Assembly: GCF_036365825.1 (NCBI RefSeq)
Contig: NZ_CP142675.1
Location: forward strand, 3,046,501 to 3,110,500
Length of the DNA stretch: 64,000 bases
Reading direction: 5' to 3'
DNA from: Qipengyuania sp. HL-TH1
GTDB lineage: Bacteria; Pseudomonadota; Alphaproteobacteria; Sphingomonadales; Sphingomonadaceae
Shown here piece after piece: positions 46,384 through 63,478 of the stretch. The notes under the pieces were generated by a model. The model was not told the DNA's origin. It was given only the letters and a program-made list of their open reading frames with translations, and made no database searches. Numbering within the stretch: position 1 is the stretch's first letter; each line of letters starts with the position of its first letter. The position numbers were made by a program, and so were the translations under genes.

Positions 46384-46423
46384 GACGTGCTTTGCAAGAG
46401 TTTCGCGCTTCAAGCTACGCGCT

Positions 46424-48637: not shown

Positions 48638-48645
48638 TGCTTCAA

Positions 48646-49658: not shown

Positions 49659-50068
49659 GCTTTTTCTCCTTCATGCATCATGGTCCAGAATAGCTGCGCC
49701 GAGCAGCTGATGAGTGCGAAGCCTGTCAGGGCTTCGATGCCGGCGAGCACCCTCAGGTGGTCGGTCGGATAGATGTCGCCCAGACCAAGCGTGGTCACGT
49801 TGATGAGCGAGAAATAAAAGTAGTCCATCCAGTCCATTGTCGGGGCCTTGTCGAACCCTCCAAGATCCCATTCCGCGCCCAGCCAGAAGCCGACCGCGAA
49901 AAGGATTGCGACCAGAAAATGCGAACTGAGGACGAGCAGCGAGACGCCAAGTTTGGCCAGCGTGTCTCGCCTGCGACCAAGGAGGCGGTGGCCGACACCA
50001 AGGATCGCGAGGTGTGAGGCGATAGCCAAGAGGAACAGAGCGACGGCAAGGATGAGCGCAATGATCAT
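49655..50068 (-). CDS. Small two-pore-helix ion channel-like protein
   Basis: 137 aa with three spans and a potassium-channel selectivity-filter-like sequence VTTLGLGDIYP between the last two (Ion_trans_2 type). The filter TLGLGD departs from the K+-selective TVGYGD, so selectivity is uncertain. The ATG at 50068 overlaps the stop of the glutaredoxin-MauE gene (ATGA), and its stop overlaps the DUF305 start. It may adjust membrane potential or cation flux during envelope stress (inference). Confidence 0.85.
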   Translation of the reverse strand: MIIALILAVALFLLAIASHLAILGVGHRLLGRRRDTLAKLGVSLLVLSSHFLVAILFAVGFWLGAEWDLGGFDKAPTMDWMDYFYFSLINVTTLGLGDIYPTDHLRVLAGIEALTGFALISCSAQLFWTMMHEGEKA

Positions 50069-50814
50069 AGGAAGACCTTTGCGCCCATCCACAGACCCAT
50101 GCCCATCATGAACATGTTCTCGGTCAATGAGACGAAGCCAAGCGGCACGTTGCTGCTGCCACCGACGCAGGCGCATTTGAGCTCGCGCTTATCGATATAG
50201 ACCGCCTTGAATACGCTGACAGCGCCGATAGTCCCGATAAACAGTGCTAGCGGAGCAGAAAGCCAGGTCAGTGCGCCAGCGGTCATGAGAATACCTGCGG
50301 CGGCTTCACCGAACGGATAGACGAAGCCATAGGGGACCCAGCGTTTGGCCAGCAGATCGTAGTTGAGGAACATGGTCGAGAAGCTGCGCACGTCTTGCAG
50401 CTTCTGGACAGCCAGCAAGGTCATCGACAGGCTCACGAACCATTCTGCCGCGCGCACGGTAAAGAGATTGTCGAAGAACGCCCAGCTCAGCCCGAGCGCG
50501 AGCAGCAGAGCTACCGCGAAAATCGCGATGACCGGCTGATAGCTGGTTTCGCCCTCCTTGGGCTGCGAGCGGCTCTTGCCGAAGAATTCGCGCACATCGT
50601 CATAGCCACCGATGCGCCTGTCTTCGATAAAGGTTTGGGGCGTGGTCTCGACCTCGTGCTTGTCTTTAAACGCGTCGGTCTCTTCCCTGCTTGTCAGGTG
50701 ATTGTCGTCGATCTCGAATCCCTGTCGCTTGAGGAGATCGATCGTCTTGAGACCATAGGGGCAAACGTGATCCTCCATCACCATGCGGTAAACCGTCGCT
50801 GTTCGGGTCGTCAT
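50065..50814 (-). CDS. Glutaredoxin - MauE-type membrane fusion
   Basis: 249 aa. Residues 5-80 are a glutaredoxin domain with the active site CPYG (near residue 18) and the cis-Pro segment TPQTFIEDRRIGGYDD. After a linker, residues 95-245 hold four to five spans resembling the MauE/DoxX family, with a conserved Cys pair (LKCACVGG) near residue 214. A cytosolic Grx joined to a MauE unit could pass thiol electrons across the membrane. It heads a tightly overlapped set ending at 48646. Confidence 0.85.
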   Translation of the reverse strand: MTTRTATVYRMVMEDHVCPYGLKTIDLLKRQGFEIDDNHLTSREETDAFKDKHEVETTPQTFIEDRRIGGYDDVREFFGKSRSQPKEGETSYQPVIAIFAVALLLALGLSWAFFDNLFTVRAAEWFVSLSMTLLAVQKLQDVRSFSTMFLNYDLLAKRWVPYGFVYPFGEAAAGILMTAGALTWLSAPLALFIGTIGAVSVFKAVYIDKRELKCACVGGSSNVPLGFVSLTENMFMMGMGLWMGAKVFL

Positions 50815-50926
50815 AATTCGCTCCGTTTGTTTTTCGTGATGGCGCTACTGGGCAATGCGCAAGCCGGGCACGGTTGTGCAGTGGAGCCCGCCTCGAGAGC
50901 TTCCCACCTGGAAAGGAAGTGCATGG

Positions 50927-52279
50927 TCAACTCGCCTCTCCCGTTCCATCGTTCTCGGGCGATGCTGGTGCGCCGGGATTGCGCGAGAGGTAGAACCATT
51001 GGCCAAGAAAAACGGCGGCGATCCCGATCACGGCGTAGGCCACGACGGCAGGATCGCTGCGCAATTTCGCGACAGTGAAAGCTGCCAGGACCACGCCATC
51101 GGCTGCGAGTGCAGCGAGAAGCACCGAGGCGCGTGCGCCGACTTTTCCGCGCAGGTGGCGCAGGACGCCCCAGTGAACCAGCATGTCCATGACGAGATAG
51201 AAGAAGGCGCCCAGCGATGCGATACGGGAAAGATCGAACAATACGGCCAGCGTTCCGGCAACGACAACCGTATAGACCAGCATGTGGCTGCGGATCCCGC
51301 CGCTCATGCCGAAATGGCTATGCGGGATCATCTTCATATCGGTCAGCATCGTCAGCATCCGCGACACCGCAAAAACACTCGCGATGACGCCCGACGTGGT
51401 GGCAGCGATCGCGATCGCGACGGTGAAATAGAAACCGAGATCGCCAAGTGCCGGGCGCGCCGCCGCCGCCAGTGAATAATCGCGTGCTTCGATAATCTCG
51501 GAGATGCTGAGGCTTGAGCCCACCGCAACAGCGACGAGCAGATAGACCACGATGCAGATGCCAATCGAGATCATGATCGTGCGGCCTACATTCTTGTGCG
51601 GATCGACGATTTCGCCGCCACTATTGGTGATCGTGGTAAAGCCCTTGAAAGCGAGAATCGAAAAGGCAACCGAGGCGACCAGGGCTTCTGCGTTGGTCAG
51701 CGCTACAGGCTGCGAGAATGCTCCTGATGAAAAACCGCTCACCCAGATCGCAGCTACTGCAAATAGCGCAATGCCGCCGATCTTGATCGCCGACATGATA
51801 AGTGAAAACCCGCTAACCGACTTGTTGCCCGCTGCATTGACGAAATAGGCAAAGATAATGAGAGCGAGCGCTACCAGAGAAACGAGCCATCCGCTGCTCT
51901 CGAGATCGAACGGACGCAGCGCATATGTTGCGAAGGTCCTTGCCACGAGACTTTCGTTGATGACCATAGACAGCGCCATCAGCAGCGAGGCTGATGCGGC
52001 GATGACGCCGGGCCCGTATGCTTTTTGCAAAATCATCGCGATGCCGCCCGATGAGGGCCATTTGTTCGACATCTTGATGTAGCTGTGGGCCGACAATGAA
52101 GTGACCAGCGCCCCGGCGATAAAGGATAGCGGAAAGAGGGGGCCGGCAAGTTCGGCGATCTGCCCGGTGAGTGCGAAGATGCCTGCACCGATCATAACGC
52201 CGGTGCCCATGGCGATGCCGCCCAGCAGCGTTATGGAGCCTGCGGTATTGCCCGTTCGATCGTGACCATGGTCTTGCAA
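50927..52279 (-). CDS. APC family amino acid/amine permease
   Basis: 450 aa with twelve spans. The N-terminal GIAMGTGVMIGAGIFALTGQIAELAGP is the standard APC signature. The start is a TTG at 52279 with AGGGGA upstream; no ATG near the N-terminus is in frame. An ECF-type promoter (GAGGGG-N15-CGTA) lies about 50 nt upstream, so it probably belongs to the sigma regulon described at 55698. The substrate is unknown; amino acid or polyamine uptake during metal stress is possible. Confidence 0.87.
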   Translation of the reverse strand: MQDHGHDRTGNTAGSITLLGGIAMGTGVMIGAGIFALTGQIAELAGPLFPLSFIAGALVTSLSAHSYIKMSNKWPSSGGIAMILQKAYGPGVIAASASLLMALSMVINESLVARTFATYALRPFDLESSGWLVSLVALALIIFAYFVNAAGNKSVSGFSLIMSAIKIGGIALFAVAAIWVSGFSSGAFSQPVALTNAEALVASVAFSILAFKGFTTITNSGGEIVDPHKNVGRTIMISIGICIVVYLLVAVAVGSSLSISEIIEARDYSLAAAARPALGDLGFYFTVAIAIAATTSGVIASVFAVSRMLTMLTDMKMIPHSHFGMSGGIRSHMLVYTVVVAGTLAVLFDLSRIASLGAFFYLVMDMLVHWGVLRHLRGKVGARASVLLAALAADGVVLAAFTVAKLRSDPAVVAYAVIGIAAVFLGQWFYLSRNPGAPASPENDGTGEAS

Positions 52280-52330
52280 TACATTCCCCTATGGATGTCC
52301 TCCCGTTCGAGAAACATCATTGCCGAACAG

Positions 52331-52355
52331 TACGTTCGGCAGGGCTTCACCCCTC
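52331..52355 (-). promoter_or_regulatory. ECF-type promoter site upstream of the APC permease operon
   Basis: Minus strand: TTTTTTGAGGGG (-35, GAGGGG at 52350-52355), a 15-bp spacer, CGTA (-10, 52331-52334). This is one of six sites with the same boxes and spacing in the 52-62.4 kb region. The -10 sits inside an inverted repeat GCCGAAC-AGTAC-GTTCGGC (52322-52340). Confidence 0.72.
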
Positions 52356-52404
52356 AAAAAAGATTCTGCGAGACTCCAGGCGCCTGTGTGCGACCGGGTT
52401 ATAG

Positions 52405-53217
52405 TTACATCGGCCCGGCTTCTCTTCGTTGAAGGTGCGCCTGAGCTTCGCGAACATCCAGCTCCCGGGTACTGTTTCCGGTGCGCAGCATGAGATGAGC
52501 GACACCCCCTTCGGTGTAGTAGACCGGATGCACGCTTTTCTCGACGATCACCCTGCAAACGGTCAGCCCGCCAAGCCCATGGAAACGACTATGGACCAGG
52601 GCACAAGCATCCCCGCCCAGGGCGTCTCTTGCAGTGTCCATCAAAAGTCGTTCGAATCCATCCTGGTTCGCGTGCTTGAGCGTTCGCATATCCGCTTCAA
52701 TGCCCGCAACAGTCCCGTCATCTTCCACGCCGATCAAGAGCGTGCCACCTTCATGGTTGAGAAAACCCGCTATTGTCTTCACGACAACCTGCTGCAGGCG
52801 CCGGTTTACGCGCTCTTCGCGTCTGTCCCAACGCATAGACGACTTGAACTCGACATGCTCTCCTTCGCCCCGGGCAATGAGCAAAGGTAGCTCTTCTTCA
52901 AGCTCGCGTTCGAGGAAACGAACTTTCGAGCGTTCATCCAAAAGGCGGCTGTGATAAATACCAAACCCCAGCCCGATCGCAGCGCCCAACGCCACATACA
53001 CAGCGCTCATCGTTAGCATTTCAAACGCGAATGCCGAAGACAGACGGTCAAGCAGAAAAGCGAGCGCGTTGCTTTGGGCGGCAATATTCGAGGCACCGAA
53101 TTCATACCAGTAGACAAGTGTCGTCACCGGATGAAGGATCGCGAAACCCATGACTGCGCCTATGGCGGTGTGCAGGAGCAGACCCCGTCTATCGTCGCTG
53201 GATCGATATCGCGAAAT
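52405..53217 (-). CDS. Membrane-anchored AlbA_2 (Schlafen-type) protein, probable ATT start
   Basis: The C-terminal 170 residues form an AlbA_2/AAA_4-type domain: GEGEHVEFKSSMRWD, KTIAGFLNHEGGTLLIGVEDDG. The N-terminus has two spans (LLLHTAIGAVMGFAILHPV and FAFEMLTMSAVYVALGAAIG) and a coiled linker. The first ATG (53151) falls inside the first span. The frame upstream is open to 53235 and has an excellent AGGAGA box (53224-53229) 6 nt before an ATT at 53217, which would give a complete N-terminus of 270 aa. ATT is a rare start, so 53151 remains the conservative alternative. The role is unknown; DNA or RNA binding at the membrane is possible. Confidence 0.7.
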   Translation of the reverse strand: MSRYRSSDDRRGLLLHTAIGAVMGFAILHPVTTLVYWYEFGASNIAAQSNALAFLLDRLSSAFAFEMLTMSAVYVALGAAIGLGFGIYHSRLLDERSKVRFLERELEEELPLLIARGEGEHVEFKSSMRWDRREERVNRRLQQVVVKTIAGFLNHEGGTLLIGVEDDGTVAGIEADMRTLKHANQDGFERLLMDTARDALGGDACALVHSRFHGLGGLTVCRVIVEKSVHPVYYTEGGVAHLMLRTGNSTRELDVREAQAHLQRREAGPM

Positions 53218-53352
53218 TGTTCGTCTCCTGTCGAGGCGTCATTCTGATTGGTGTCGCCAGCCTTCTTTTGTCGCATCCGACACCCGCGTGGAACCAAGTG
53301 CTTGTTCCGATCGATAGAGCGCCGTTTCAAGCCAGTCTGATTTCCTCAAGCG

Positions 53353-53616
53353 TTATCTGAAGTACCGGTATAACGGCACCACGATCACCGCGATGTACCA
53401 CCCATATAAGAAGCTGCCGATTGCGCCTGCGAGAAATCCAGGCAGAGTCAGCCATTCGTATCCGGGAAGCAGCGGTTCCCAGGCCTCATGCATATGGAAC
53501 CGTTCGGGCGCGAGCAGGCCGAAAGCTATGCAGATCAAATAGCTGACGAGCAGAAACAGGCTGAGTGTCCAGCCCCAGGCGATGATCGAGGATTTGAGCG
53601 AACGCTCTGACATCAT
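53353..53616 (-). CDS. DUF5676-like two-span membrane protein
   Basis: 87 aa with two long spans (WGWTLSLFLLVSYLICIAFGLL and WLTLPGFLAGAIGSFLYGWYIAVIVV) and the pattern HEAWEPLLPGYEWLT between them, which I associate with DUF5676. The start ATGATG at 53616 follows AGGAGAACC. It lies 41 nt after the DUF411 gene on the same strand, downstream of an ECF-type promoter. Confidence 0.75.
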   Translation of the reverse strand: MMSERSLKSSIIAWGWTLSLFLLVSYLICIAFGLLAPERFHMHEAWEPLLPGYEWLTLPGFLAGAIGSFLYGWYIAVIVVPLYRYFR

Positions 53617-53657
53617 GGTTCTCCTGTTGAATTACCGTCATCTGGGCTGGTCGGCGT

Positions 53658-54125
53658 TTACGGATAGGATGCGAAGACTTTCTGGCCGTCCGGACCGAAA
53701 GCGATGACCTCATAGGGCTGCACTCGATCGCCCATTTCCATGCCGGGGGAGCCTAGCGGCATTCCGGGAACGGCGAGGCCGGTCACGCCCTCGGGCCTTT
53801 CGCGCAGGAGCCGCGCGATCGCTTCGGCGGGCACATGACCTTCGATGATGTAGCCCTCGACTTCCATTGTGTGGCACGACCACATATCCTGCGGTACGCC
53901 CTTGGCTGCCTTGAGCGCACTCATATCGTCAGTATCGACCGAAGCCACTTCTGCTTCCATGCCGCCCTCGACATGTCCTGCCCAGCTCAGGCAGCAACCA
54001 CATCCCGGGTCCCTGAACATCGTGTAGGTGGCGGCCTGTGCGGCATTCGAGCAGGCCGCAAGCGTGAGAAGAACCGATGCCGTCAGCGAACGCCGCAGCG
54101 GCTTCGATGGATTGTCTTTGATCAT
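53658..54125 (-). CDS. DUF411 periplasmic metal-binding protein
   Basis: 155 aa, lipobox-like signal (VLLTLAAC) and the DUF411 core: RDPGCGCCLSWAGH near residue 40, WSCHTMEVEGYIIEGHVPA, GLAVPGMPLGSPGME. The CGCC and the CHT/H and Met residues are candidate copper ligands, and DUF411 genes usually occur with copper-resistance genes. The ATG is 1 nt after the methyltransferase stop, so they are in one operon. Confidence 0.9.
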   Translation of the reverse strand: MIKDNPSKPLRRSLTASVLLTLAACSNAAQAATYTMFRDPGCGCCLSWAGHVEGGMEAEVASVDTDDMSALKAAKGVPQDMWSCHTMEVEGYIIEGHVPAEAIARLLRERPEGVTGLAVPGMPLGSPGMEMGDRVQPYEVIAFGPDGQKVFASYP

Positions 54126-54126
54126 G

Positions 54127-54834
54127 TTACATGCCTTTCTTGGAGCCGCGCCAGAGCGAAATGGTTCCGGTTGCGGTATGGATCTGAGCGAGCAGCTCTG
54201 CGCTTGCGAAAATTTCGCCTAGCAATTTCTCGACTGCTCCGTCAGCGCTCGGCTGGGTGTCTGGTAAACCGTCGAGAAGCTGAACGGTCGCGCGGAACAT
54301 TGCGCGCATGAGCGGATGGTCCTGGCGCATGTAATCAGCGATCAGCACCATGCCGCCAGGAGCTAGCAAGGCCTCCATTTGCTCGAGGATCGCGCGCTTC
54401 TGCGACACGGGAACCTGGTGCAAAACAAGCGAGCTGACGATCGTATCGGGTCGCCGATCACCCGAAAGGTCGAGACTGTCGAGAAATCCGTTGTGCCATC
54501 GAACGAGGCCCGCAGCAGGACCAAGCTTGCGCCGTGCGATCGCAAGCGCTGCCGGATCGGGTTCTACGCCTAATAAATCTGCTTGGGGGCAGCTGGTCAT
54601 GAAGGCTCGCAACAACGTCCCCGTGCCGCAACCTACATCCATGACCTTGTCGCCAGGTTTTACTCGAGCCTGTTTGACGATCTCCCGGCGCCATTTCGCC
54701 TCGCGCGTGAAAACGCCAATCGCACGATCGTAGAGCGGTGTGAGCCAGCTGTGGCCAAGCAGAGGAGTGAACTCCCGTTCCACTTTTGTGAGGCGTGCAT
54801 TTTTCACCACATAATTTCCGATCTGTTCAAACAA
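54127..54834 (-). CDS. Class I SAM-dependent methyltransferase (paralogue of the 1-632 gene)
   Basis: 235 aa. The SAM motif is KVMDVGCGTGTLLRAF near residue 64, then LGVEPDPAALAIA, SLVLHQVPVSQK and LIADYMRQDHPLMRAMFRAT. It shares blocks all along its length with the truncated protein at the left edge of the window. An ECF-type promoter lies about 30 nt upstream, back to back with the sigma operon promoter, and the DUF411 gene follows directly. The substrate is unknown, possibly a lipid or small thiol. Confidence 0.92.
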   Translation of the reverse strand: MFEQIGNYVVKNARLTKVEREFTPLLGHSWLTPLYDRAIGVFTREAKWRREIVKQARVKPGDKVMDVGCGTGTLLRAFMTSCPQADLLGVEPDPAALAIARRKLGPAAGLVRWHNGFLDSLDLSGDRRPDTIVSSLVLHQVPVSQKRAILEQMEALLAPGGMVLIADYMRQDHPLMRAMFRATVQLLDGLPDTQPSADGAVEKLLGEIFASAELLAQIHTATGTISLWRGSKKGM

Positions 54835-54863
54835 CCTTCGCTATTGTTCGTTGCACGTTCTGA

Positions 54864-54888
54864 TACGCACAGCCGGGCCGCAGCCCTC
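54864..54888 (-). promoter_or_regulatory. ECF-type promoter site upstream of the methyltransferase-DUF411 operon
   Basis: Minus strand: TTTTTTGAGGGC (GAGGGC at 54883-54888), a 15-bp spacer, CGTA (54864-54867). It matches the other sites except for the last -35 base. It is only 14 bp from the outward-facing site at 54902, so one bound region can serve both directions. Confidence 0.7.
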
Positions 54889-54901
54889 AAAAAAGAAACT
54901 T

Positions 54902-54926
54902 AAGGGTTCGGGTATTCTATCGCGTA
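54902..54926 (+). promoter_or_regulatory. ECF-type promoter site upstream of the anti-sigma/sensor/sigma operon
   Basis: Plus strand: TTAAGGGT (AAGGGT at 54902-54907), a 15-bp spacer, CGTATA (54923-54928), about 30 nt before the first ATG (54957). It is the weakest -35 match of the set but keeps spacing and -10 exactly, consistent with autoregulation of the sigma operon. Confidence 0.62.
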
Positions 54927-54956
54927 TAGGAAGCGGGCAACCGACAGGAGCAATGG

Positions 54957-55253
54957 ATGCGTAACAATCAGACACTCGATGCGATGCTTGGGACGCTGGG
55001 CACACAGGACTCCTTCAAAGTTCCGGACGATTTCATGACCGGCGTGTGGCAACGGGCAGGCCAGCTTGGCGAAATCGTTGAAAGACGCCGCAGGATGGCC
55101 TTGTTCGCGGGCCTGTTCGTCGTCGGCCTGGGAGCCGGTGCAGGCACCAGCGGGTGGCCTGCACAATTTGCTGGTTCCCAACCTGGCATAGCAGATAGCA
55201 TCATTGTCGGAGAGCGGCTCTCGCCCTCCGAGCTGCTGCATGTGGAGCGCTAG
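54957..55253 (+). CDS. CnrY-like short anti-sigma protein
   Basis: 98 aa. A cytoplasmic N-terminus of about 45 residues ends in a basic ERRRR stop-transfer, followed by one span (MALFAGLFVVGLGAGAG) and a short periplasmic tail. This is the layout of CnrY, which holds its sigma factor with the N-terminal segment. Sequence alone is too short for firm homology, so the call rests on topology and on its position before a CnrX-like sensor and an ECF sigma gene. The ATG at 54957 has AGGAG 6 nt upstream. Confidence 0.72.
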   Translation: MRNNQTLDAMLGTLGTQDSFKVPDDFMTGVWQRAGQLGEIVERRRRMALFAGLFVVGLGAGAGTSGWPAQFAGSQPGIADSIIVGERLSPSELLHVER

Positions 55254-55256
55254 ACA

Positions 55257-55691
55257 TTGAAGAAATTGCATATTGCCCTCGCGGTGCTGCTCGCGGCGCT
55301 CGCCGGTTGTCTCGGTGCGCTCGCCGCAGATCGCTGGGCCAATCACGATGCTGATACGGGCCTACATGCGTTCGTGCATGATGAACTCACACTAACAAAC
55401 GAGCAGAAGCAACGCCTTGAGACACTCGAAGCGCGCTTCGCTGTGGAACGGGCCAGGCTCGAGGCCTCTGCGCGCGCTGCCAACGCCCAACTCGCGCAGG
55501 CGATGGAAGCCGAACACGAATACGGACCCAGGGTGGGGGCGGCCATCGACGAGGTTCATGCACGCATGGGCGATCTCCAAAAAGCAACGGTCCGCCATGT
55601 CTTCGACATGCGTGAAATTCTCGACCCCGATCAGCAAAGACGATTTGACCAGCAAGTGTCCAAAGCTCTCACCGACAGCCCGCGCAGCTGA
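55257..55691 (+). CDS. CnrX-like periplasmic metal sensor
   Basis: 144 aa, TTG start. An N-terminal span (ALAVLLAALAGCLGALAA) anchors a four-helix, periplasmic Spy/CnrX-type domain. H37, H41 (HAFVH), E58, H114 and M118 (HVFDM) correspond to CnrX metal ligands H42, H46, E63, H119 and M123 at one constant offset of five residues. CnrX passes Ni/Co binding to CnrY, freeing the sigma factor. It is 4 nt after the anti-sigma gene and 6 nt before the sigma gene, the CnrY-X-H order. The metal sensed here may differ. Confidence 0.85.
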   Translation: MKKLHIALAVLLAALAGCLGALAADRWANHDADTGLHAFVHDELTLTNEQKQRLETLEARFAVERARLEASARAANAQLAQAMEAEHEYGPRVGAAIDEVHARMGDLQKATVRHVFDMREILDPDQQRRFDQQVSKALTDSPRS

Positions 55692-55697
55692 CCCCGC

Positions 55698-56273
55698 ATG
55701 CCGGTAAAAAAGGGGGGCAATTCAGAACAAATACTTGTCGCGCAGGTCGTGGCCGGCAGCAGGCAGGCGTTTTCGTCTCTTGTCGAAGCCCACATCGCGC
55801 GGCTGATTGCGCTGGCGACGCGCATGCTGGGGTCTTCCTCCTCCGCTCAGGACGTGGTCCAGGATAGCCTCGCATCGGTCTGGCTCACCCGGCATCGTCT
55901 CGATGCCTCCAAGCCCGTCGGCCCTTATCTTACAACAATTGTCCTGAACCGGTGTCGCGACCGACTTCGCCGAAGGAAGGTCGTCGGTTTCTTCGGTTTT
56001 CCGAGTTCCGACGAGGTACAGGCGGTGGCCGACGACACGCCCGATCCCGAAAACCTTGCAGCGAGCCGTGAGCAACTCAGGCTCGTCGAGGCGGAGATCG
56101 GGCGGTTGCCCATACGCCTGCGCGAAGCGCTTGTGCTCGTAAGTGTCGAAGGCCGAAGCCAGGCCGAAGCCGCCGCGTTGCTCGGCACGACCGAGAAGGC
56201 GATCGAGACGCGCATATATCGTGCGCGCAACCGGCTGAGAGAACGGGTCAAAAACTTTGAGGGGTACAGCTGA
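55698..56273 (+). CDS. ECF RNA polymerase sigma factor (CnrH-like)
   Basis: 191 aa with sigma region 2 (AFSSLVEAHIARLIALATRMLG, AQDVVQDSLASVWLTRH, PYLTTIVLNRCRDRLRRRK) and region 4 (LPIRLREALVLVSVEGRSQAEAAALLGTTEKAIETRIYRARNRLRER). Position after an anti-sigma and a CnrX-like sensor indicates release from the membrane on metal binding. Six promoter-like sites of one pattern lie in its surroundings, one before its own operon. The last codons contain the -35 box of the copA promoter (56259-56264). Confidence 0.93.
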   Translation: MPVKKGGNSEQILVAQVVAGSRQAFSSLVEAHIARLIALATRMLGSSSSAQDVVQDSLASVWLTRHRLDASKPVGPYLTTIVLNRCRDRLRRRKVVGFFGFPSSDEVQAVADDTPDPENLAASREQLRLVEAEIGRLPIRLREALVLVSVEGRSQAEAAALLGTTEKAIETRIYRARNRLRERVKNFEGYS

Positions 56274-56283
56274 CAGGCGCGTA
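56259..56283 (+). promoter_or_regulatory. ECF-type promoter site upstream of the copAB operon
   Basis: CTTTGAGGGG (GAGGGG at 56259-56264), a 15-bp spacer, CGTA (56280-56283), 36 nt before the copA ATG. The -35 and part of the spacer are inside the sigma gene's last codons (Phe-Glu-Gly-Tyr-Ser-stop), so the promoter is embedded in coding sequence. Confidence 0.75.
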
Positions 56284-56318
56284 AGGGTGGGTGTATGTCA
56301 CATCAGGAGCCGCATTCA

Positions 56319-58136
56319 ATGATTTCCGTAAATCGACGCAAATTCCTTGGTACGGGAGCAGGCGGGATGGGCCTGCTTGGCCTTGCCGGAGCAATGCCGG
56401 CCTGGGCGCGCGGCGGTGACCTCCTGGCGGGAAATGCCCGTAAGGGACTGGACGAGGTGGCGGGGCCGAATATCGACCTCACCGTAGCCCGGTCCGCCTT
56501 CGCAAGCGGCAACAGGCGCGGCGGCGCGATCGCTGTCAATGGCAGTATTCCAGGACCTCTCCTGCGCCTGCAGGAAGGAACGACGGTCCGGCTAAACGTG
56601 CATAACCAGCTTGAGGAAGATACGTCCATTCACTGGCACGGGCTTCTCGTACCATTTGAGCTCGATGGCGTTCCGGGAGTGAGCTTCCCCGGCGTCAAGC
56701 CGGGTGAGACCTTCACCGCCGAATTTCCCGTGCGGCAATCGGGAACTTACTGGTGGCATTCGCACAGCGGCCTTCAGGAACAGGCGGGCCACTATGGCGC
56801 GATCGTGGTCGATCCCGCAGGTCCCGATCCGGTGCAGGCCGACCGCGAATATATCGTGGTGCTGAGCGAATTCAGCGACATGTCGCCGCACGCGATCTTC
56901 GACAAGCTCAAGAAGGGCGAAGGCTACTTCAACTACAACCAGAACACCTGGACTGATGATTATCCGCTGTCGGGTGAAGACCGCCGGATGTGGGCGAAGA
57001 TGCGCATGATGCCGACTGACATCCTCGACGTATCGAGCGCGGCCTATACCTATCTTCTGAATGGCCATGGCCCGCTGGACAATCTGGAGTATCTGTTCCG
57101 GCCGGGTGAGCGGGTGCGCCTTCGCTTTGTTAATGCCGGCGCGATGACTTTCTTCAATATACGCATCCCCGGCCTACCCATGACAGTGGTTCAGGCTGAT
57201 GGACAGAATGTCGAACCGGTCGAGGTCGATGAGCTGCAGATCGGTGTCGCCGAAACCTACGACGTTGTCGTCACCCCGCGCGAGGAACCGGCCTACACGC
57301 TGGTGGCGGAGTCGATGGACCGCTCTGGCATGGGCATCGCGACGCTGGCGAGCAGGCCCGGCGCGCGCGCAGCTATACCTCCGCTGCGCGATCCGCCGCT
57401 GCTCACCATGGCCGACATGGGCATGAGCGGTATGGACCACGGTGCAGGCACTGGTGGTGACATGTCAGGGATGGATCATGGAACCGATGGTGCCATGGCG
57501 GGCATGGATCATGGTTCGAGCGGAGCGCCGAACGGCGACGCAATGGCGGGGATGGCAGGCATGTCTGGCATGCAGATGCGCGATACGTCGCGCCTTCCGC
57601 CTGACGTGAAGGTCGGCCCGGGCCTCGACATGGTATCGATGAACCCGGTCGATCGCATGGGCGATCCGGGCATTGGCCTTGCCGATGTGCCCCATCGCAC
57701 GCTCGATTATCGCAAGCTTCGCGCGCTGAGGCCGCACGAGGAAGGCAGAACTCCGTCCCGGCGGATGGAAATCCATCTGACCGGCAATATGGAGCGCTAC
57801 ATGTGGTCGTTCGACGGCAAGAAGTTTTCCGCCGTCTCCGACGAACCGATCCGCTTTGCCTATGACGAGCGGGTACGGGTCAAGCTCATCAACGACACGA
57901 TGATGGCGCATCCGATCCATCTCCACGGTCATTTCTTCGAACTGGTCAATGGTGCCCCTGCGGATCGCCAGCCCTTGAAGCACACGGTAATCCTGCAGCC
58001 AGGCGGCAGCGCCCAATTCGACCTGACTGCCGACGAGCCGGGTGACTGGGCCTTTCACTGTCATCTTCTTTACCACATGCACGCCGGGATGTTTCAGATC
58101 GTCACGGTCGCCAATCCGGACGGGAGCGAAGCATGA
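56319..58136 (+). CDS. copA: CopA/PcoA-type copper-resistance multicopper oxidase
   Basis: About 605 aa. A Tat signal (NRRKFLGTGAGGMGLLGLAG) precedes three cupredoxin domains. Copper motifs are IHWHGLLVP, WWHSHSG, HPIHLHGHFFE and FHCHLLYHMHAGM. A Met/His-rich insertion (residues about 370-420, several MDHG and MAGM units) binds extra copper in the PcoA family. I chose the ATG at 56319 with AGGAG 9 nt upstream. This is the plasmid-type CopA oxidase, distinct from the P-type ATPase also called copA at 40841. It overlaps copB by ATGA. Confidence 0.95.
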   Translation: MISVNRRKFLGTGAGGMGLLGLAGAMPAWARGGDLLAGNARKGLDEVAGPNIDLTVARSAFASGNRRGGAIAVNGSIPGPLLRLQEGTTVRLNVHNQLEEDTSIHWHGLLVPFELDGVPGVSFPGVKPGETFTAEFPVRQSGTYWWHSHSGLQEQAGHYGAIVVDPAGPDPVQADREYIVVLSEFSDMSPHAIFDKLKKGEGYFNYNQNTWTDDYPLSGEDRRMWAKMRMMPTDILDVSSAAYTYLLNGHGPLDNLEYLFRPGERVRLRFVNAGAMTFFNIRIPGLPMTVVQADGQNVEPVEVDELQIGVAETYDVVVTPREEPAYTLVAESMDRSGMGIATLASRPGARAAIPPLRDPPLLTMADMGMSGMDHGAGTGGDMSGMDHGTDGAMAGMDHGSSGAPNGDAMAGMAGMSGMQMRDTSRLPPDVKVGPGLDMVSMNPVDRMGDPGIGLADVPHRTLDYRKLRALRPHEEGRTPSRRMEIHLTGNMERYMWSFDGKKFSAVSDEPIRFAYDERVRVKLINDTMMAHPIHLHGHFFELVNGAPADRQPLKHTVILQPGGSAQFDLTADEPGDWAFHCHLLYHMHAGMFQIVTVANPDGSEA

Positions 58137-59410
58137 AGACTTTTCTAGCAAGCCTGCTTGCCTCGCTCGCTGCCGGAACGATGCTGTCGGCACCGGCTTC
58201 GGCACAGCATGCCGGGCATGACACCAGTCAACCCCAGCCCGGGGCTCAGCCGGTCACGGGCCAGGATGCTGCGGACAGGTGTGCGCAGGAAGCGCAGCGC
58301 CATCGGGACATGGGCCATGCCGTTGCGGACGGCGCTTGCGAGCCGACCGCCAGCGACCAACCGGCGATGGATCACGGAACCATGGATCATTCGCAGATGA
58401 GCCAAGGGGCGATGGCCGAAGGTGAAGAAAGTTCGGGCATGGAGATGCCCATGGCGCAGTCCGGTCAGGAATCCATGGAAATGGATCACAGCCAGATGAA
58501 TCATGGCGATATGCCTCAAGGCCAGGCGAGCCAGAGCGAGATGGACCACAGCCAGATGGACCACAGCCAGATGGACCACAGTCAGATGGGCCAGGTTTCC
58601 GCGCCGTCACCAGCCATGCAGGGAATGGATCATTCCGCAATGCAAGGGTCTGCCGACGATATGATCCCGCTCCTCCCGCCTCCGCCCGAAGCTGGCAGCG
58701 GCCCCGCGCGCGCCGGTATTGCAATTTGGGGCGAGGAAGCCATGAACGAAGCCCGGCAGGAGCTGGTCCGCGAAACCGATGGCGGCATGCGGCTATGGAT
58801 ACAGGGCGACCGCGTGGAATACCGGGCGCGCGAAGGCGCGGACGGCTATCTTTGGGACGTTCAGGGTTATTACGGCGGCGATATCAATAAGTTCTGGTTC
58901 AAATCGGAAGGCGAGGGCAGCTTCGGCGAACCGATCGAAGGGGCCGAGGTGCAGGCTCTGTGGAGCCGCGCCATCGCACCCTTTTTCGACTTCCAGGCTG
59001 GTGTCCGACAAGACTTGACCGGACCTGAACGCACCCATGCGGTGATCGGCATCCAGGGTATTGCCCCTTACAAGTTCGAAGTCGATGCTGCGGCGTTTAT
59101 TTCCAGCAAGGGCGATGTGACGGCCCGCATCGAGGGCGAACTTGACCAGCGCATCACCCAGCGGTTGATCCTTCAGCCGCGCGCGGAACTTGCACTTTCG
59201 GCTCAGGATATTCCGGAGCTGGGAGTTGGCGCGGGGATCGACCGAATCGAAGCAGGCCTTCGCCTGCGCTATGAATTCGCACGCGAATTCGCGCCGTATA
59301 TCGGCGTCTCTCAGGAATGGCGGATAGGCGATAGTGCCGCCTATGCCCGTGCGGCCGGCGAAGACCCGAGCGTGACGAACTATGTCGTCGGTGTCCGGTT
59401 CTGGTTCTAA
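58133..59410 (+). CDS. copB: CopB-type outer membrane copper-resistance protein
   Basis: 425 aa. A signal peptide leads to a long Met/His-rich domain (residues 25-175) with repeated MDHSQM and MDHG units, followed by a C-terminal beta-barrel of the CopB family (GEEAMNEARQELVRETDGGM, RLWIQGDRVEYRA ... VGVRFWF). The N-terminal domain likely captures periplasmic copper. The gene begins in an ATGA overlap with copA. Three exact or near-exact 15-bp copies at 58541-58585 encode MDHSQ in tandem. Confidence 0.95.
   Translation: MKTFLASLLASLAAGTMLSAPASAQHAGHDTSQPQPGAQPVTGQDAADRCAQEAQRHRDMGHAVADGACEPTASDQPAMDHGTMDHSQMSQGAMAEGEESSGMEMPMAQSGQESMEMDHSQMNHGDMPQGQASQSEMDHSQMDHSQMDHSQMGQVSAPSPAMQGMDHSAMQGSADDMIPLLPPPPEAGSGPARAGIAIWGEEAMNEARQELVRETDGGMRLWIQGDRVEYRAREGADGYLWDVQGYYGGDINKFWFKSEGEGSFGEPIEGAEVQALWSRAIAPFFDFQAGVRQDLTGPERTHAVIGIQGIAPYKFEVDAAAFISSKGDVTARIEGELDQRITQRLILQPRAELALSAQDIPELGVGAGIDRIEAGLRLRYEFAREFAPYIGVSQEWRIGDSAAYARAAGEDPSVTNYVVGVRFWF
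58541..58585 (+). repeat. Tandem 15-bp repeat encoding MDHSQ in copB
   Basis: Three consecutive units of ATGGACCACAGCCAG occupy 58541-58555, 58556-58570 and 58571-58585 (the last with one silent change, C to T). They lie in the Met/His-rich metal-binding region and may expand or contract by slippage. Confidence 0.9.
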
Positions 59411-59425
59411 AAAAAGGAAAGACTA

Positions 59426-59989
59426 ATGAAGAATTCGATGATCATTCAAGGTTTGATGGCTTCGGCCCTCGCAGTTTCCGCAGTACCGGCGATGGCGCAG
59501 ACCATGGATCATTCGGCGCATCAGGAACAAGCTGAAGCGATGGAGATGGACCATTCGGCGCAAGGCATGAACCATGCCGATCACATGGCGGCCATGAACG
59601 ACGATGTCGCCGGTGCAGAAGCGGCTCTGGTCGCCTACCGTGAGGCCTTGGTTGCCCGCGACGGTGACGCAATGGACGCTCTTTTTGCCGACGAATCTTT
59701 CGTTTACGAGAACGGCAAGGACGAAGGTAGCTTCACGCATTACATGGAGCATCATCTCGGGCCCGAACTGGATGCAATTGCAAGTTTCACCTTCGGTGAT
59801 CCGACCGTCGCGGTCACCCGCATGGGACATCTCGCTTACGGGCGCGAAACCTACACCTACCGGATCGAACTGACGGATGGTCGGGTTATCGAGCGCGAGG
59901 GCGTGGCCACATCCGTACTTGCCCATGACGCCGATGGCTGGAAGATCGTGCAATATCATTCCTCGTCGCGCGCGCCGCGCAACCGCTGA
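59426..59989 (+). CDS. Exported SnoaL/DUF4440-like protein with Met/His N-terminus
   Basis: 187 aa. A signal peptide (MASALAVSAVPAMAQ) is followed by a metal-binding-like stretch (MDHSAHQEQAEAMEMDHSAQ) resembling the copB N-terminus. A C-terminal alpha+beta cone domain of the SnoaL/DUF4440 type follows (AYREALVARDGDAMDALFADE ... DADGWKIVQYHSSSR). It is 15 nt downstream of copB. A periplasmic copper-binding or catalytic role is possible but undefined. Confidence 0.82.
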   Translation: MKNSMIIQGLMASALAVSAVPAMAQTMDHSAHQEQAEAMEMDHSAQGMNHADHMAAMNDDVAGAEAALVAYREALVARDGDAMDALFADESFVYENGKDEGSFTHYMEHHLGPELDAIASFTFGDPTVAVTRMGHLAYGRETYTYRIELTDGRVIEREGVATSVLAHDADGWKIVQYHSSSRAPRNR

Positions 59990-60012
59990 TCGGAGTGCGA
60001 GGGGGCAACCGA

Positions 60013-60747
60013 GTGGCGAAACGCTCGTTCAAGCTGCGCCTGCATGTCCTGGGCAGCAAGCTGCACAAATGGCTGGCGATCTTCGTCGGCCTCCAGGTGC
60101 TTTTGTGGATGGGCACCGGAGCTTTGATGTCCTTTCTCGATCTGGAGGAAGTGCGATCCGAGCATGTCATCTCGCGCGCAGCACAGACGCTTCCCGACGA
60201 TGCCGCCATCCCGCGATGGCTGTCCGACAGCGATGACATTACCGCAATCACGACCCGGGTTCTTGATGGCAAGACTGTTACTGAGGTGCGGCGAGCCGAT
60301 GGCGCGGTGAGCCTGCATGAGCCACAAAGCGGTCGGATATTATCTCCCATTCCCGCAGCCACGGCACGTTCAATTGCGCGGCGCGCCTGGGTCGGTCCGC
60401 AAACATCCATCCATGCGGCGCGCCTGGTCGACGAAAGCGTTGGCACCGAATTCAGGGGCCCGTTTCCTGCATGGCAAATCACCTATAATGACGTGGCTAA
60501 CACGCGCGTCTATGTCGATGCATCGAGCGGTGCGGTCCTCTCCGCGCGAAGCGACACGTGGCGGTTCTTCGATTTCATCTGGGGGCTGCACATCATGGAC
60601 TGGACGCAGCGCGACCGGATCAACAGCTGGTGGCTTTTGCTGTTCGGCATCGGCGGGACAATTATCGCGATCTCGGGCTTCGTCTTGCTGGCCAACAGGT
60701 TCCCGAGGACTAAGCGCCGGGCGAGACATGGCCAAGTCGCTCGTTGA
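60013..60747 (+). CDS. PepSY-domain membrane protein
   Basis: 244 aa. It has an N-terminal span (WLAIFVGLQVLLWMGTGALMSFL), a periplasmic PepSY-like region, and a C-terminal pair of spans with DFIWGLHIMDWTQRDRIN and LLFGIGGTIIAISGFVLL, the layout of PepSY-associated TM proteins linked to iron or copper reductases. I chose the GTG at 60013 because GAGGGGG stands 8 nt before it; a GTG six codons upstream is possible. It is the last gene of the copAB operon. Confidence 0.82.
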   Translation: MAKRSFKLRLHVLGSKLHKWLAIFVGLQVLLWMGTGALMSFLDLEEVRSEHVISRAAQTLPDDAAIPRWLSDSDDITAITTRVLDGKTVTEVRRADGAVSLHEPQSGRILSPIPAATARSIARRAWVGPQTSIHAARLVDESVGTEFRGPFPAWQITYNDVANTRVYVDASSGAVLSARSDTWRFFDFIWGLHIMDWTQRDRINSWWLLLFGIGGTIIAISGFVLLANRFPRTKRRARHGQVAR

Positions 60748-60760
60748 GACTGCTTTCAGT

Positions 60761-61234
60761 TCAGTTGCGCTCGGTTTGAGCAAACCGAACCAGAAGGATC
60801 GTCAGCGCAGGCACGATCGTCCACATCGCGATCGGGATCAGAGCCATGCCGGTCAATGGTTCATGGGGCATCAGATCGCTATAGCGCCAGCTCAGCAGGC
60901 TGTCTGACGGTAGCGACGTCGCCATGATTTCGACAGCGATTGCAACGACAAGGCCGAAACCGAAGTATATTGCATAAGATATCCTGGCGCCTTGGCGAAA
61001 CCAGGCGCGCCCGCCCTTCATGGCTGCGAGCGTGTACGCTGCGAGCAGGATAAGTCCATCGCCCAGGCTCGCAATGCCGCAACGAATGGTCTGTTCATAG
61101 GGTTCGAGATTGCCCGGAACGAAAAACGGCATCTGGTAGATTTCCCAGACGAACGCGATCAAGCTGCCGCAAATATAGACTAGCCAATGGGTTCTGGTCA
61201 CCTTGCCATGATTCCACAGATATGTGCATCGCAA
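60761..61234 (-). CDS. Small four-span membrane protein, paralogue of 28529-29002
   Basis: 157 aa, TTG start at 61234 with AGGAG 5 nt upstream. Four spans carry the same sequence blocks as the 28529-29002 protein: LIAFVWE--Q-PF, a Glu then RCGIASLGD, AAYTLA, W-Y-DLMPHEPLTG and L-PI-MW. The family is unrecognised. It converges on the PepSY gene. Confidence 0.7.
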   Translation of the reverse strand: MRCTYLWNHGKVTRTHWLVYICGSLIAFVWEIYQMPFFVPGNLEPYEQTIRCGIASLGDGLILLAAYTLAAMKGGRAWFRQGARISYAIYFGFGLVVAIAVEIMATSLPSDSLLSWRYSDLMPHEPLTGMALIPIAMWTIVPALTILLVRFAQTERN

Positions 61235-61285
61235 AGCCGCTCCTGGCCTGCATTTTCGGTCCTCGATCGCGTTTGCATTGCCGGA

Positions 61286-61573
61286 TTACTCAGCCTCTCC
61301 ATGATCCGCGTTGTCGGTAAGCCGAGCAGCACGGTCAAGAAATTTGCGCATGTCATTTGCTGCCAGTTCGGTAAGAGGGTGCCTGCTCGCCTCGGGACGC
61401 GGTTCAATCATGTCCGCGCGCTTTCTGATCTGTTCGATCTGCTCACTGCTCGCTCCGGACAGCAGGCCAAGAACGATGTTTTCGAGCGTGATGAGCCGAA
61501 TGCGCATCTGCACCAGTTCGGCCTTGTCCGGTTCCGGGACTTCCCAGCTGCCGTCTTCGTTGACCGCGCTCAT
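61286..61573 (-). CDS. 95-aa soluble protein of unknown function
   Basis: 95 aa, acidic N-terminus and alpha-helical in character (AELVQMRIRLITLENIVLGLL ... SSEQIEQIRKRADM ... ELAANDMRKFLDRAARL). No membrane span or metal motif. It is preceded by, and overlaps in ATGA, a short frame with a very strong ribosome site (61570-61605), which suggests translational coupling. It lies 51 nt before the 61234 gene and may share its transcript. Confidence 0.65.
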   Translation of the reverse strand: MSAVNEDGSWEVPEPDKAELVQMRIRLITLENIVLGLLSGASSEQIEQIRKRADMIEPRPEASRHPLTELAANDMRKFLDRAARLTDNADHGEAE

Positions 61574-61605
61574 CGCAGCATTCCCGGCGGCTTTTCTGAT
61601 ACCAT
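61570..61605 (-). CDS. 11-residue leader peptide frame
   Basis: ATG at 61605 follows AAGGAG with a 6-nt spacer, a stronger site than that of the 61573 gene. The frame encodes MVSEKPPGMLR and ends in a TGA that overlaps the 61573 ATG (ATGA). It looks like a leader that couples translation to the downstream gene. Alternatively it marks the original N-terminus of that gene after a small frameshift. Confidence 0.45.
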   Translation of the reverse strand: MVSEKPPGMLR

Positions 61606-61723
61606 GACCGTCTCCTTCTTTTCTCTTGGCTTGTGCCGGAAACGTGGCTGAAAATCAGTAATGCTGCAACCGGCTCGGCTGTTGGCCTGCCCTTCGCCGC
61701 CACCATCTCTTGCGTGATTGTTT

Positions 61724-61748
61724 GAGGGGGAGCGACGTTCGCTGCGTA
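61724..61748 (+). promoter_or_regulatory. ECF-type promoter site upstream of the 61803 gene
   Basis: GTTTGAGGGG (GAGGGG at 61724-61729), a 15-bp spacer, CGTA (61745-61748), about 55 nt before the ATG at 61803. It has the full -35 and -10 match. Confidence 0.75.
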
Positions 61749-61802
61749 AAGGTGATGAATGCACAAGGCATCCACCACCTGACCAAAGAAGGGAATTCGA
61801 CC

Positions 61803-62192
61803 ATGAACCGCACAGCCTTGGCCCTCTTGCTCGCCACTGGCCTGACAGCCTCCCCGGTAATGGCACAGCAGCAGCATGACCATGCAAATCAAGCTGTAGC
61901 ACAGCAGCAGGATCACAGTGGCCACATGATGCAGGATTCCGAGGCCATGACAGCCCATCGTGAGAAGATGGCTGAAATGCGCGCGCTGATGCAGCAGGCC
62001 CGCGCCGCGAGCGATCCCGCCGAACGCCAAAGGCTGACGGCCGAGCACCGCGAAAAGATGCAGGAGCACATGGCGGGCATGATGCAGGGGGGCAACGCCG
62101 ATATGATGGCGGCCTGTCACCAGCGCATGACGATGATGCACGATATGATGGAGCAGATGGCTGCCCAGCAGGATATGGCGCAGCAAGACTAG
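61803..62192 (+). CDS. Exported Met/His/Gln-rich Spy-like protein
   Basis: 129 aa, signal peptide (TALALLLATGLTASPVMAQ), then Gln/His-rich start (QQQHDHANQ) and a long helical Met-rich region (HREKMAEMRALMQQARA, AGMMQGGNADMMAACHQRMTMMHDMMEQM). Composition and helices resemble Spy/CpxP-type periplasmic proteins, here loaded with Met and His for copper. It sits about 55 nt after an ECF-type promoter, so it is probably induced with copAB. Confidence 0.82.
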   Translation: MNRTALALLLATGLTASPVMAQQQHDHANQAVAQQQDHSGHMMQDSEAMTAHREKMAEMRALMQQARAASDPAERQRLTAEHREKMQEHMAGMMQGGNADMMAACHQRMTMMHDMMEQMAAQQDMAQQD

Positions 62193-62332
62193 GAACCGGC
62201 GGCCCGGATCGGTGCTGACGCTCCCCCGGGCTTCGCTCGCTGCAATGGGTCGCAATTCGGACAGACGTGCAATCGCCCGAGCACACAAAATCGCATAACT
62301 CCTGCGCTGGCCCACCCTCAGAAAACTGTTTT

Positions 62333-62357
62333 GAGGGGTGAGATCTCCAGATGCGTA
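62333..62357 (+). promoter_or_regulatory. ECF-type promoter site upstream of the DUF2231 operon
   Basis: TTTTGAGGGG (GAGGGG at 62333-62338), a 15-bp spacer, CGTA (62354-62357), about 50 nt before the ATG at 62406. Full match to the pattern. Confidence 0.75.
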
Positions 62358-62405
62358 ACAATCTGTAGGGCAGCGGAAAGCCGCCTAGAAAGGGCACTCG
62401 TCAAT

Positions 62406-63062
62406 ATGAAGCCAATCCAACTGTTGGCGCTTGTTTGCGCAAGTCTTCTTTGGGTCAGCCCGGTCCACGCGCATGGCGACGAAGCGCATGGCGGGGCCGA
62501 GAGCGCAGCTGCGCCTGCGACAGCCAGTCCAGTGAACAATTCCGGTGAAGCCCAGGAATTATCGAATGGCGCTTCGGGTGACGCTCATGCTTCCGGCGGG
62601 CACGACGAAGCATCGGGAGAGACCGCCAATGTGAACGAGGAGGGCTTCGTCGGTGTGCTCAAGAGATTGCATCCCGCCACGGTACATTTCCCAATTGCCC
62701 TGTTTCTGATGGCCGCGCTGGCCGAGCTCTTCGTCGGTAAGCGAAGAGAAGCCAGCTTGGAGCCTGCGGTACGCGTGCTCATTTACGGCGGTGCGGGCGG
62801 CGCTGTCATCGCGGCCATATTCGGGTGGATACATACCGGACTGTGGTTTGGCGGGGATACGGCAATGCAGCTCCATCGCTGGAACGGCATGCTCATTGCC
62901 GTTCTGGGTCTTGTGCTCGCCGCGCTCGCGTACCGCCGCCCGGAGAGCCGGACAATGCTGCGCATTGCGCTTGTATCGATGGCTGTGCTCATTTTGGCCC
63001 AGGGGTTCTTGGGCGGCGAACTGGCGCACGGCCAGAACCATCTCGGCATTTCCTGGCTGTAG
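62406..63062 (+). CDS. DUF2231 membrane protein
   Basis: 218 aa. A signal (LLALVCASLLWVSPVHA) and His/Ala/Ser-rich periplasmic linker (HGDEAHGG ... SGGHDEASG) precede the DUF2231 membrane domain: KRLHPATVHFPIALFLMAALAEL, an IFGWIHTGLW span, LHRWNGMLIAVLGLVLAAL. DUF2231 proteins are found in copper loci; H in LHPATVHFP and LHRW could bind heme or metal. I chose the ATG at 62406; the upstream frame overlaps the promoter. Confidence 0.85.
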   Translation: MKPIQLLALVCASLLWVSPVHAHGDEAHGGAESAAAPATASPVNNSGEAQELSNGASGDAHASGGHDEASGETANVNEEGFVGVLKRLHPATVHFPIALFLMAALAELFVGKRREASLEPAVRVLIYGGAGGAVIAAIFGWIHTGLWFGGDTAMQLHRWNGMLIAVLGLVLAALAYRRPESRTMLRIALVSMAVLILAQGFLGGELAHGQNHLGISWL

Positions 63063-63073: not shown

Positions 63074-63478
63074 ATGCCCAAAAGCAAATCGAAGATGACA
63101 GCCACCGGTCCCGCTCAAGTCGTGGCTGCTCTGTTTTTCCTCGCCGGGTGTGACGAAGCGCAGGTTTCGGCGCCTGACGCGCAGACGCCAATGGCCATAG
63201 GAGCTGCGCCATCGGCTGCCACAGCTTCCCCCGGTGTTGATGGCACGGAAAATTCCTCGGATGCTTACGGCGAGGCGCAGCCGGTGACTGCAGGAACTTC
63301 CCCTGAGAGCATGGACGAGGTCTCAAACAGGCCGCGCTCCGGCAGTTCGCGAGCAGCACCCGTGCCGCCGATTCAGCCGGCAGATGCCAGCGCAGTCACG
63401 CCAACAGCCGAGCCCGCGGACCCGCATGCGGGTCACGATATGCAGTCGATGCCGGATCACGATATGAAAGACATGTGA
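63074..63478 (+). CDS. Putative lipoprotein with His/Met-rich C-terminus
   Basis: 134 aa. A short basic N-terminus and hydrophobic stretch end in a lipobox (FFLAGC). The mature part is low-complexity, rich in Ala, Ser and Pro, and ends in HAGHDMQSMPDHDMKDM, a metal-binding tail like those of CopB and the 59426 protein. It is 11 nt after the DUF2231 gene and followed by a hairpin terminator. Confidence 0.72.
   Translation: MPKSKSKMTATGPAQVVAALFFLAGCDEAQVSAPDAQTPMAIGAAPSAATASPGVDGTENSSDAYGEAQPVTAGTSPESMDEVSNRPRSGSSRAAPVPPIQPADASAVTPTAEPADPHAGHDMQSMPDHDMKDM

Follow-up and report, generated by a model that had tools for sequence, protein, structure and literature searches.

What recognizes six promoter-like sites of one pattern that are gathered within 10 kb around a single gene for an extracytoplasmic function (ECF) sigma factor, and which signal would act on them? 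This question is raised by a 64,000-nucleotide (nt) stretch of the genome of Qipengyuania sp. HL-TH1 (contig NZ_CP142675.1, positions 3,046,501 to 3,110,500), which is called the window here and is numbered from its first letter. A first-pass annotation had proposed that the sites define a local ECF sigma regulon. Comparison with related and known systems makes it very probable that the six sites are promoters of a CnrH-type ECF sigma factor encoded at 55698-56273, which would be released in response to metal and would induce copper-linked transcription units. The knowledge added by this analysis is a CnrYXH-type switch that appears to be wired to copper defence and to be widespread in Sphingomonadales.

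Six sites around one sigma factor gene

The six sites were found exactly as first described: four read GAGGGG, one GAGGGC, and one AAGGGT, each followed by 15 nt and CGTA. Two are on the minus strand, where GAGGGG-N15-CGTA at 52331-52355 is the putative promoter of an APC permease unit and GAGGGC-N15-CGTA at 54864-54888 that of a methyltransferase-DUF411-DUF5676 unit. The other four are on the plus strand. Here, AAGGGT-N15-CGTA at 54902-54926 is the candidate promoter of the sigma operon, with a predicted transcription start at approximately 54935, and GAGGGG-N15-CGTA at 56259-56283 is that of copAB, with a -35 box that overlaps the last codons of the sigma gene and a predicted start at approximately 56292. 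Two further GAGGGG-N15-CGTA sites, at 61724-61748 and 62333-62357, are the predicted promoters of a small Met/His-rich exported protein and of a DUF2231 protein with a putative lipoprotein, respectively. The distance of about 30-55 nt to a start codon, which had been claimed for every site, holds for five of them (51, 29, 30, 54, and 48 nt from CGTA) but not for the copA site, where the first ATG, at 56295, follows the -10 box by 11 nt. Translation of copA probably begins at ATG 56319 instead, 35 nt from the -10 box; this start is likelier because an AGGAG Shine-Dalgarno sequence lies at 56305-56309.

The exact pattern GAGGGG-N15-CGTA is far commoner in the window than in shuffled sequence, with four occurrences compared to a mean of 0.08 over 100 shuffles. 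Its four occurrences in the whole genome (3,325,063 bases) all fall inside the same 10 kb, which bears out the proposed confinement near one ECF sigma gene; the same pattern read backwards as a control is found five times. When the last base of the hexamer is freed, TGAGGG-N16-CGTA occurs nine times genome-wide, namely five times in the cluster, twice elsewhere in the window, and twice elsewhere in the genome, compared to two matches for the control. In a genome scan, TTGAGGGG gives four sites in its exact form, all in the cluster, and three sites with one mismatch, one of which (54864) is in the cluster, and shows no excess with up to two mismatches (86 matches, compared to 138 for the control). 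Because of these last counts, the degenerate pattern has no genome-wide signal and the two-mismatch count was not used as support; the AAGGGT site is therefore indistinguishable from chance by pattern count alone. The same counts are what would favor a chance likeness of GC-rich hexamers as the origin of all six sites, an explanation that is hardly credible in view of the confinement of the four exact sites to 10 kb, the ranking of the sites by a matrix derived from other genomes, and their conservation in relatives.

DNA of relatives was taken from 20 stretches, each surrounding a sigma gene relative, and from four annotated Sphingomonadales plasmid loci, giving 24 loci. A weight matrix was built from 70 distinct GAGGG-N16-CGTA sites of 23 of these loci, with L065, which is nearly identical to the window, left out. 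The top six scores of the matrix in the window belong to exactly the six sites (33.7, 33.5, 33.2, 30.2, 29.2, and 21.4), the seventh being 13.6, and in 40 Markov-random windows of 64 kb, the maximum averaged 8.4 and never exceeded 14.4. The AAGGGT site is recovered in this way with 21.4, the lowest of the six. In the base composition around the boxes, T is commonest at the four places before the -35 box, G occupies the sixth place of the -35 box in 44 of 72 sites, and G stands right before CGTA in 53 of the 72. After GAGGGN, a spacer of 15 was counted in 79 cases in the 24 loci, compared to zero to four at every other length from 8 to 24; in a set of 80 loci, the counts were 267 at length 15 and zero to nine at other lengths from 10 to 21, save 21 at length 12. 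Because 18 of these 21 are one identical 22-mer, the excess at length 12 was read as a sign of relatedness and set aside.

The positions of the boxes were then compared in the homologous regions of relatives, in which a box was accepted at a score of at least 15 within 200 nt upstream, with the matrix rebuilt without the locus under test; the resulting counts are inflated by kinship. The boxes are kept in related genomes, being found upstream of cnrY, the first gene of the sigma operon, in 20 of 21 loci and upstream of copA in 21 of 23. A box also precedes the gene for the small exported protein in all five relatives in which this gene was found (gap 54-55 nt) and the DUF2231 gene in 12 of 17 loci. 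No box reaching this score was found in the 24 loci before any of 13 other genes tested, including cnrX (24 loci), cnrH (24), copB (23), and the NTF2-like and PepSY genes (14 each).

Across 249 genomes of the family, exact TTGAGGGG-N15-CGTA was found 117 times, compared to 17 for the backwards control; of the 117 sites, 98 are no more than 15 kb from a listed relative of the sigma gene, of which there are 122. Among these 98, 43 sit at the 3′ end of the sigma gene and share its orientation, 26 precede its start by 790-878 nt, and 29 have other positions. An exact site is present in 66 of the 105 genomes that have a listed sigma relative, compared to eight of the 144 that have none, and lies within 15 kb of 39 of 46 sigma genes scoring at least 150 bits and of 27 of 76 at 90-150 bits. 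Such linkage, together with the positions at the heads of the units and the likeness to CnrH promoters described below, gives good support to the suggested assignment of the sites to the sigma factor at 55698-56273. The boxes might also be read by another ECF sigma factor or by a DNA-binding regulator, in which case the proximity of the sigma gene would reflect a shared metal-resistance island. The four further ECF-like matches of the genome and the eight genomes that carry an exact site but no listed sigma relative speak for this possibility. It is nevertheless very improbable: the four other ECF matches score at most 56 bits, compared to 396 bits for the sigma factor, no other close match to which was found in the genome; the sites accompany the sigma gene across genera; and the boxes match mapped CnrH promoters. 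A palindromic operator is also unlike these sites, because their orientation and start-codon distance are fixed while the spacer sequence varies.

A CnrYXH-like operon and the CnrH promoters

The sigma operon, all on the plus strand, is read here as encoding a CnrY-CnrX-CnrH-type switch, of which the sensor and the anti-sigma factor were absent from the first-pass annotation. The first gene (54957-55253) encodes a putative CnrY-like anti-sigma factor of 98 amino acids (aa) with a probable single membrane helix, as judged by eye; no Pfam or NCBIfam match was found for it. The second gene (55257-55691, TTG start) encodes a CnrX-like periplasmic metal sensor of 144 aa (PF13801, 1.2e-17), which matches the solved structures of NccX (4clv, 6.3e-19) and CnrX (3zg1, 7e-17). 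For a predicted model of the sensor (43 sequences, mean pLDDT 86.3), all 15 structure matches at E ≤0.001 are CnrX or NccX, and they include chains of an entry titled apo and copper-bound CnrX. The third gene (55698-56273) encodes the CnrH-like ECF sigma factor of 191 aa, with Sigma70_r2 and r4_2 domains. Its best solved relative is CnrH (4cxf, 8.8e-27), which ranks first among 15 distinct solved sequences found at E 0.001; the protein has one cysteine, and its C-terminus ends in LRERVKNFEGYS.

Of 296 genomes examined in the order, 101 have the sensor. Conservation of the ligand positions is almost complete among 80 distinct sensors: H37 is found in all 80 and H41, E58, H114, and M118 in 79 each. 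We take the three histidine positions to be ligands in CnrX. The CnrX ligand E63 is named in the title of a PDB entry, and M123 is given as a ligand in PMC7689651. In addition, H101 and M104 occur in 77 of the 80 sensors and H87 in 74, at which positions both Cupriavidus CnrX proteins have E, A, and P, respectively; the Asticcacaulis sensor has P in place of H87.

Boxes precede both the own operon, before cnrY, and the next gene, copA, as they do in cnrYp and cnrCp of Cupriavidus, although the use of the former as promoters is predicted. When the start points given in PMC9045368 are placed on the pMOL28 sequence, cnrYp reads AAGGGG-N16-CGTA and cnrCp GAGGGG-N16-CGTA, with 8 nt from CGTA to the start in each; in the text of that paper, both are named CnrH-dependent. 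In a second Cupriavidus locus, the site upstream of cnrY reads GAGGGT-N16-CGTA, and that upstream of the gene following the sigma gene reads GAGGGG-N16-CGTA. The identity of the window's sites with the mapped CnrH promoters lies in the GAGGGG-like -35 and CGTA -10 boxes, and the pMOL28 stretch holds a single spacer-15 match, inside cnrB.

From these likenesses the following mechanism may be proposed. The CnrY-like membrane anti-sigma factor would hold the sigma factor, and the CnrX-like sensor would bind excess periplasmic metal, most likely copper. On metal binding, CnrY would release the sigma factor, with which RNA polymerase would start approximately 9 nt past each CGTA. The induced units would be those of the multicopper oxidase and CopB, the methyltransferase-DUF411-DUF5676 proteins, the APC permease, the Met/His-rich protein, and the DUF2231 protein with the lipoprotein. 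The sigma operon would also be self-induced, probably more weakly.

The self-promoters depart from the consensus more than the output promoters do. In 79 loci with the sigma gene, a perfect box is present in 36 of 47 distinct forms of the copA promoter, leaving 11 imperfect, compared to 12 of 37 for the cnrY promoter, leaving 25, and AAGGG[ACGT] is the form of the self-promoter in 30 of the 79; here, too, kinship inflates the counts. Since the AAGGGT site also scores lowest of the six, it could be argued that only the strong boxes, before copA, the permease, the Met/His-rich protein, and DUF2231, are at work and that the sigma-operon and methyltransferase boxes have decayed, with no self-regulation. 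Such decay is quite unlikely, considering that the cnrY-site box is kept in all but one of the relatives and that mapped cnrYp, too, departs from the consensus with AAGGGG.

Several observations weigh against the CnrH-type assignment and its copper-linked regulon. The spacer is 16 in both promoters of the two Cupriavidus loci, compared to 15 at all six sites here; spacer length may be tied to lineage and not to metal, because Caulobacter sp. FWC26 has spacer 16 at copper genes. In PMC9045368, the cnrY start stands in what is presumably the RpoD column, whose counterpart holds the cnrC start, and PMC11647585 marks the cnrY start as RpoD. The CnrY assignment depends on place, size, and a short motif, a C-terminal S/A-P-x-x-L-L in common with Cupriavidus CnrY, at 10-11% identity. 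In the relatives, a box is found upstream of the methyltransferase gene in only eight of 12 loci (gap 27-30 nt), upstream of DUF411 in only five of 22, and upstream of the APC permease gene in only nine of 17, in which it is always 50-51 nt from the start. Nineteen of the 117 exact sites have no listed sigma relative nearby, and 39 of the 105 genomes with such a relative are without an exact site. Finally, the ligands kept from CnrX belong to a nickel/cobalt sensor, so that copper as the signal is deduced from gene company alone.

Copper or nickel and cobalt as the signal

The gene company is as follows. In 75 of 80 loci, copA is the gene immediately after that for the sigma factor; among the five exceptions, L143 and L148 end before the copA position, and L125, L159, and L167 have no copA in the available DNA. 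The named Sphingomonadales plasmid loci viewed, from Novosphingobium, Aurantiacibacter, Croceicoccus, Sphingobium, and Polymorphobacter, have the operon followed by a multicopper oxidase gene and copB in eight of eight cases, and copCD, cueR, or a P-type ATPase gene is frequently close by. In Asticcacaulis, copAB is on the opposite side of the operon, and boxes precede the copA gene and that of a copper-binding protein. On plasmid p1 of Caulobacter sp. FWC26 (L171), the CnrYXH-like operon is followed by a type II restriction endonuclease gene, and spacer-16 boxes precede the genes for a copper-binding protein and a P-type ATPase. In the window, the genes directly after the sigma gene are copA-copB instead of cnrCBA-like RND efflux genes, and cnrA-like matches occur in only three of the 80 loci, all on the other strand toward the locus edge. 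From this company, we infer copper to be the signal.

A nickel or cobalt signal is a serious rival to copper. The sigma factor and the promoters would be the same, and the sensor would answer nickel/cobalt or several divalent metals as a broad periplasmic metal alarm. This would agree with the five CnrX ligand positions being kept in nearly all of the 80 distinct sensors, with cobalt and nickel driving CnrX in Cupriavidus (PMC7689651), and with the raised levels of copA, copB, and copC of Sphingobium sp. ba1 in nickel-rich medium (PMC5557971). We regard such a signal as somewhat unlikely, because cnrA-like genes are so rare and so placed in the loci, copA and copB come next in all eight plasmid loci viewed, and H101, M104, and mostly H87 mark nearly all of the copper-linked sensors and are absent from both Cupriavidus CnrX proteins. 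Moreover, the nickel-induced ba1 operon shares its gene order with an operon of S. chlorophenolicum, in which a box is found only before DUF411.

That operon, on pSPHCH01 (L180), has the order ALDH-AdhP-copA-copB-MFS-DUF411. No box was found before its head in the 147 nt upstream (L180) or over the opening 1500 bases of the circular record (L182), the record-start junction lying outside the scan.

With copper as the preferred signal, there is a real possibility, put forward tentatively, that the CnrX-type sensor was retuned from nickel/cobalt to copper in Alphaproteobacteria by way of H101, M104, and mostly H87, and that, together with its sigma factor, it makes up a common periplasmic copper switch of Sphingomonadales. 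If true, the switch would do in Sphingomonadales what CopRS/CusRS two-component systems do elsewhere. One sensor fold used for perhaps two metals would also provide a natural comparison for the study of periplasmic metal choice.

The operon may be set beside four known systems. CnrYXH (C. metallidurans pMOL28) and NccYXH have in common with it the Y-X-H order, a homologous sensor and sigma factor, the five ligand positions, and GAGGGG-like and CGTA boxes upstream of both the Y gene and the gene that follows H. CnrYXH differs in serving the CnrCBA nickel/cobalt pump, whereas copAB and other copper-linked genes are found here; in having two such boxes before cnr genes, compared to six putative promoters around the present locus; and in the spacer length and the three sensor residues described above. 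CorE of Myxococcus xanthus is likewise an ECF sigma factor with a part in copper defence, and its targets include a multicopper oxidase, but it has a Cys-rich C-terminal extension and no anti-sigma factor, according to PMC10141476, in contrast to the 191-aa protein with one cysteine and an anti-sigma/sensor operon here. The SigAb-AabA-AabB system of Acinetobacter baumannii comprises a copper-responsive ECF sigma factor and an anti-sigma factor modelled like CnrY on CnrH; SigAb directly targets sigAb, relA, and a small RNA, the system is termed Acinetobacter-specific, and CnrX is not mentioned in the text of PMC12153292, from which these statements are taken. SigF-NrsF of Caulobacter crescentus is a copper-induced alphaproteobacterial ECF system with NrsF as the anti-sigma factor and targets that include DUF2282, DUF692, DoxX, and sulfoxide reductase genes, and PMC8224329, the source for this system, does not mention CnrX.

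Among the open-licence literature matches listed, a copper-related sigma factor of the CnrH type in Sphingomonadales is described in no title or abstract opening. The comparison would name a likely copper-defence regulator for a large bacterial group from environmental and marine habitats, in which annotated records give its parts no labels beyond 'periplasmic heavy metal sensor', 'hypothetical protein', and 'RNA polymerase sigma factor'. The promoter motif appears precise enough for regulon listing in such genomes, and genes of unknown function, i.e., those for DUF411, DUF5676, DUF2231, DUF305, and DUF6692 proteins and the APC permease, would be linked to the response.

Genes of the cluster, its spread, and other features of the window

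On the plus strand, the candidate target genes begin with copA (56295-58136), whose multicopper oxidase product matches TIGR01480 with 777.8 bits (cut-off 479), and copB (58133-59410), which encodes an outer-membrane copper resistance protein (PF05275, 2.2e-85). The genes for a SnoaL/NTF2-like exported protein (59426-59989; PF13474, 1.9e-12) and a PepSY membrane protein (59995-60747; PF03929, 1.7e-11) probably belong to the copA unit as well. The Met/His-rich exported protein of 129 aa (61803-62192) has no family match; it had been labelled Spy-like, but no Pfam or NCBIfam match was found at E 0.05. The last unit comprises the genes for the DUF2231 membrane protein (62406-63062; PF09990, 9.1e-11) and the putative lipoprotein (63074-63478), an open reading frame (ORF) with no family match.

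The minus strand carries the genes for a class I methyltransferase (54127-54834, TTG start; PF08242, 3.1e-16), a DUF411 protein (53658-54125; PF04214, 1e-26), and a DUF5676-like protein with two transmembrane segments (53353-53616; PF18926, 9.2e-06, just under the cut-off). The APC-superfamily permease gene (50927-52279, TTG start; PF13520, 7.7e-27) is followed on the same strand by glutaredoxin/MauE, ion channel, DUF305, and DUF6692 genes (48646-50814), which probably form the remainder of its unit. These genes overlap or lie close on one strand and have no box of their own in relatives.

Over 17 kb, the cluster at 46066-63058 shares 91% identity with a locus of a genome that falls in another genus group (G051), and a contig from an uncultured Sphingomonadaceae matches it at 98% over 14 kb. 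A sensor match is absent from nine listed congeners. The cluster has probably moved between species, because the identity across genera is high while these congeners are without a sensor match.

The genome holds a second copA (G000:C2:2745830-2747494, 691 bits), for which no box was found, the best scores being -8.1 on its own strand and 11.5 on the other (L177). Upstream of it is a palindromic ATACCCC/GGGGTAT stretch, which we take to be CsoR-like. Because of this stretch and the lack of a box, the second copA is probably under another regulator. Within the window, at approximately 8.2-9.6 kb (L178), a 680-codon open frame matches TIGR01480 below the cut-off, and no box was found in the 3.3 kb scanned there. 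A search of the window for tRNA genes found none.

Two weaker matches in the window were not counted as sites. GAGGGA-N15-CGTA at 31710-31734 (minus strand) scores 13.6, which is inside the random range, and sits 119 nt before the start of an ORF for an epimerase-like protein of 846 aa (29050-31590, minus strand). GAGGGA-N15-CGTA at 39163-39187 (plus strand) has a score of 7.6 and falls within the 3′ part of the ORF for a small Met-rich exported protein (38848-39231). This ORF directly precedes a multicopper oxidase ORF (39236-40828), a layout that resembles that of the copA promoter within the end of the sigma gene.

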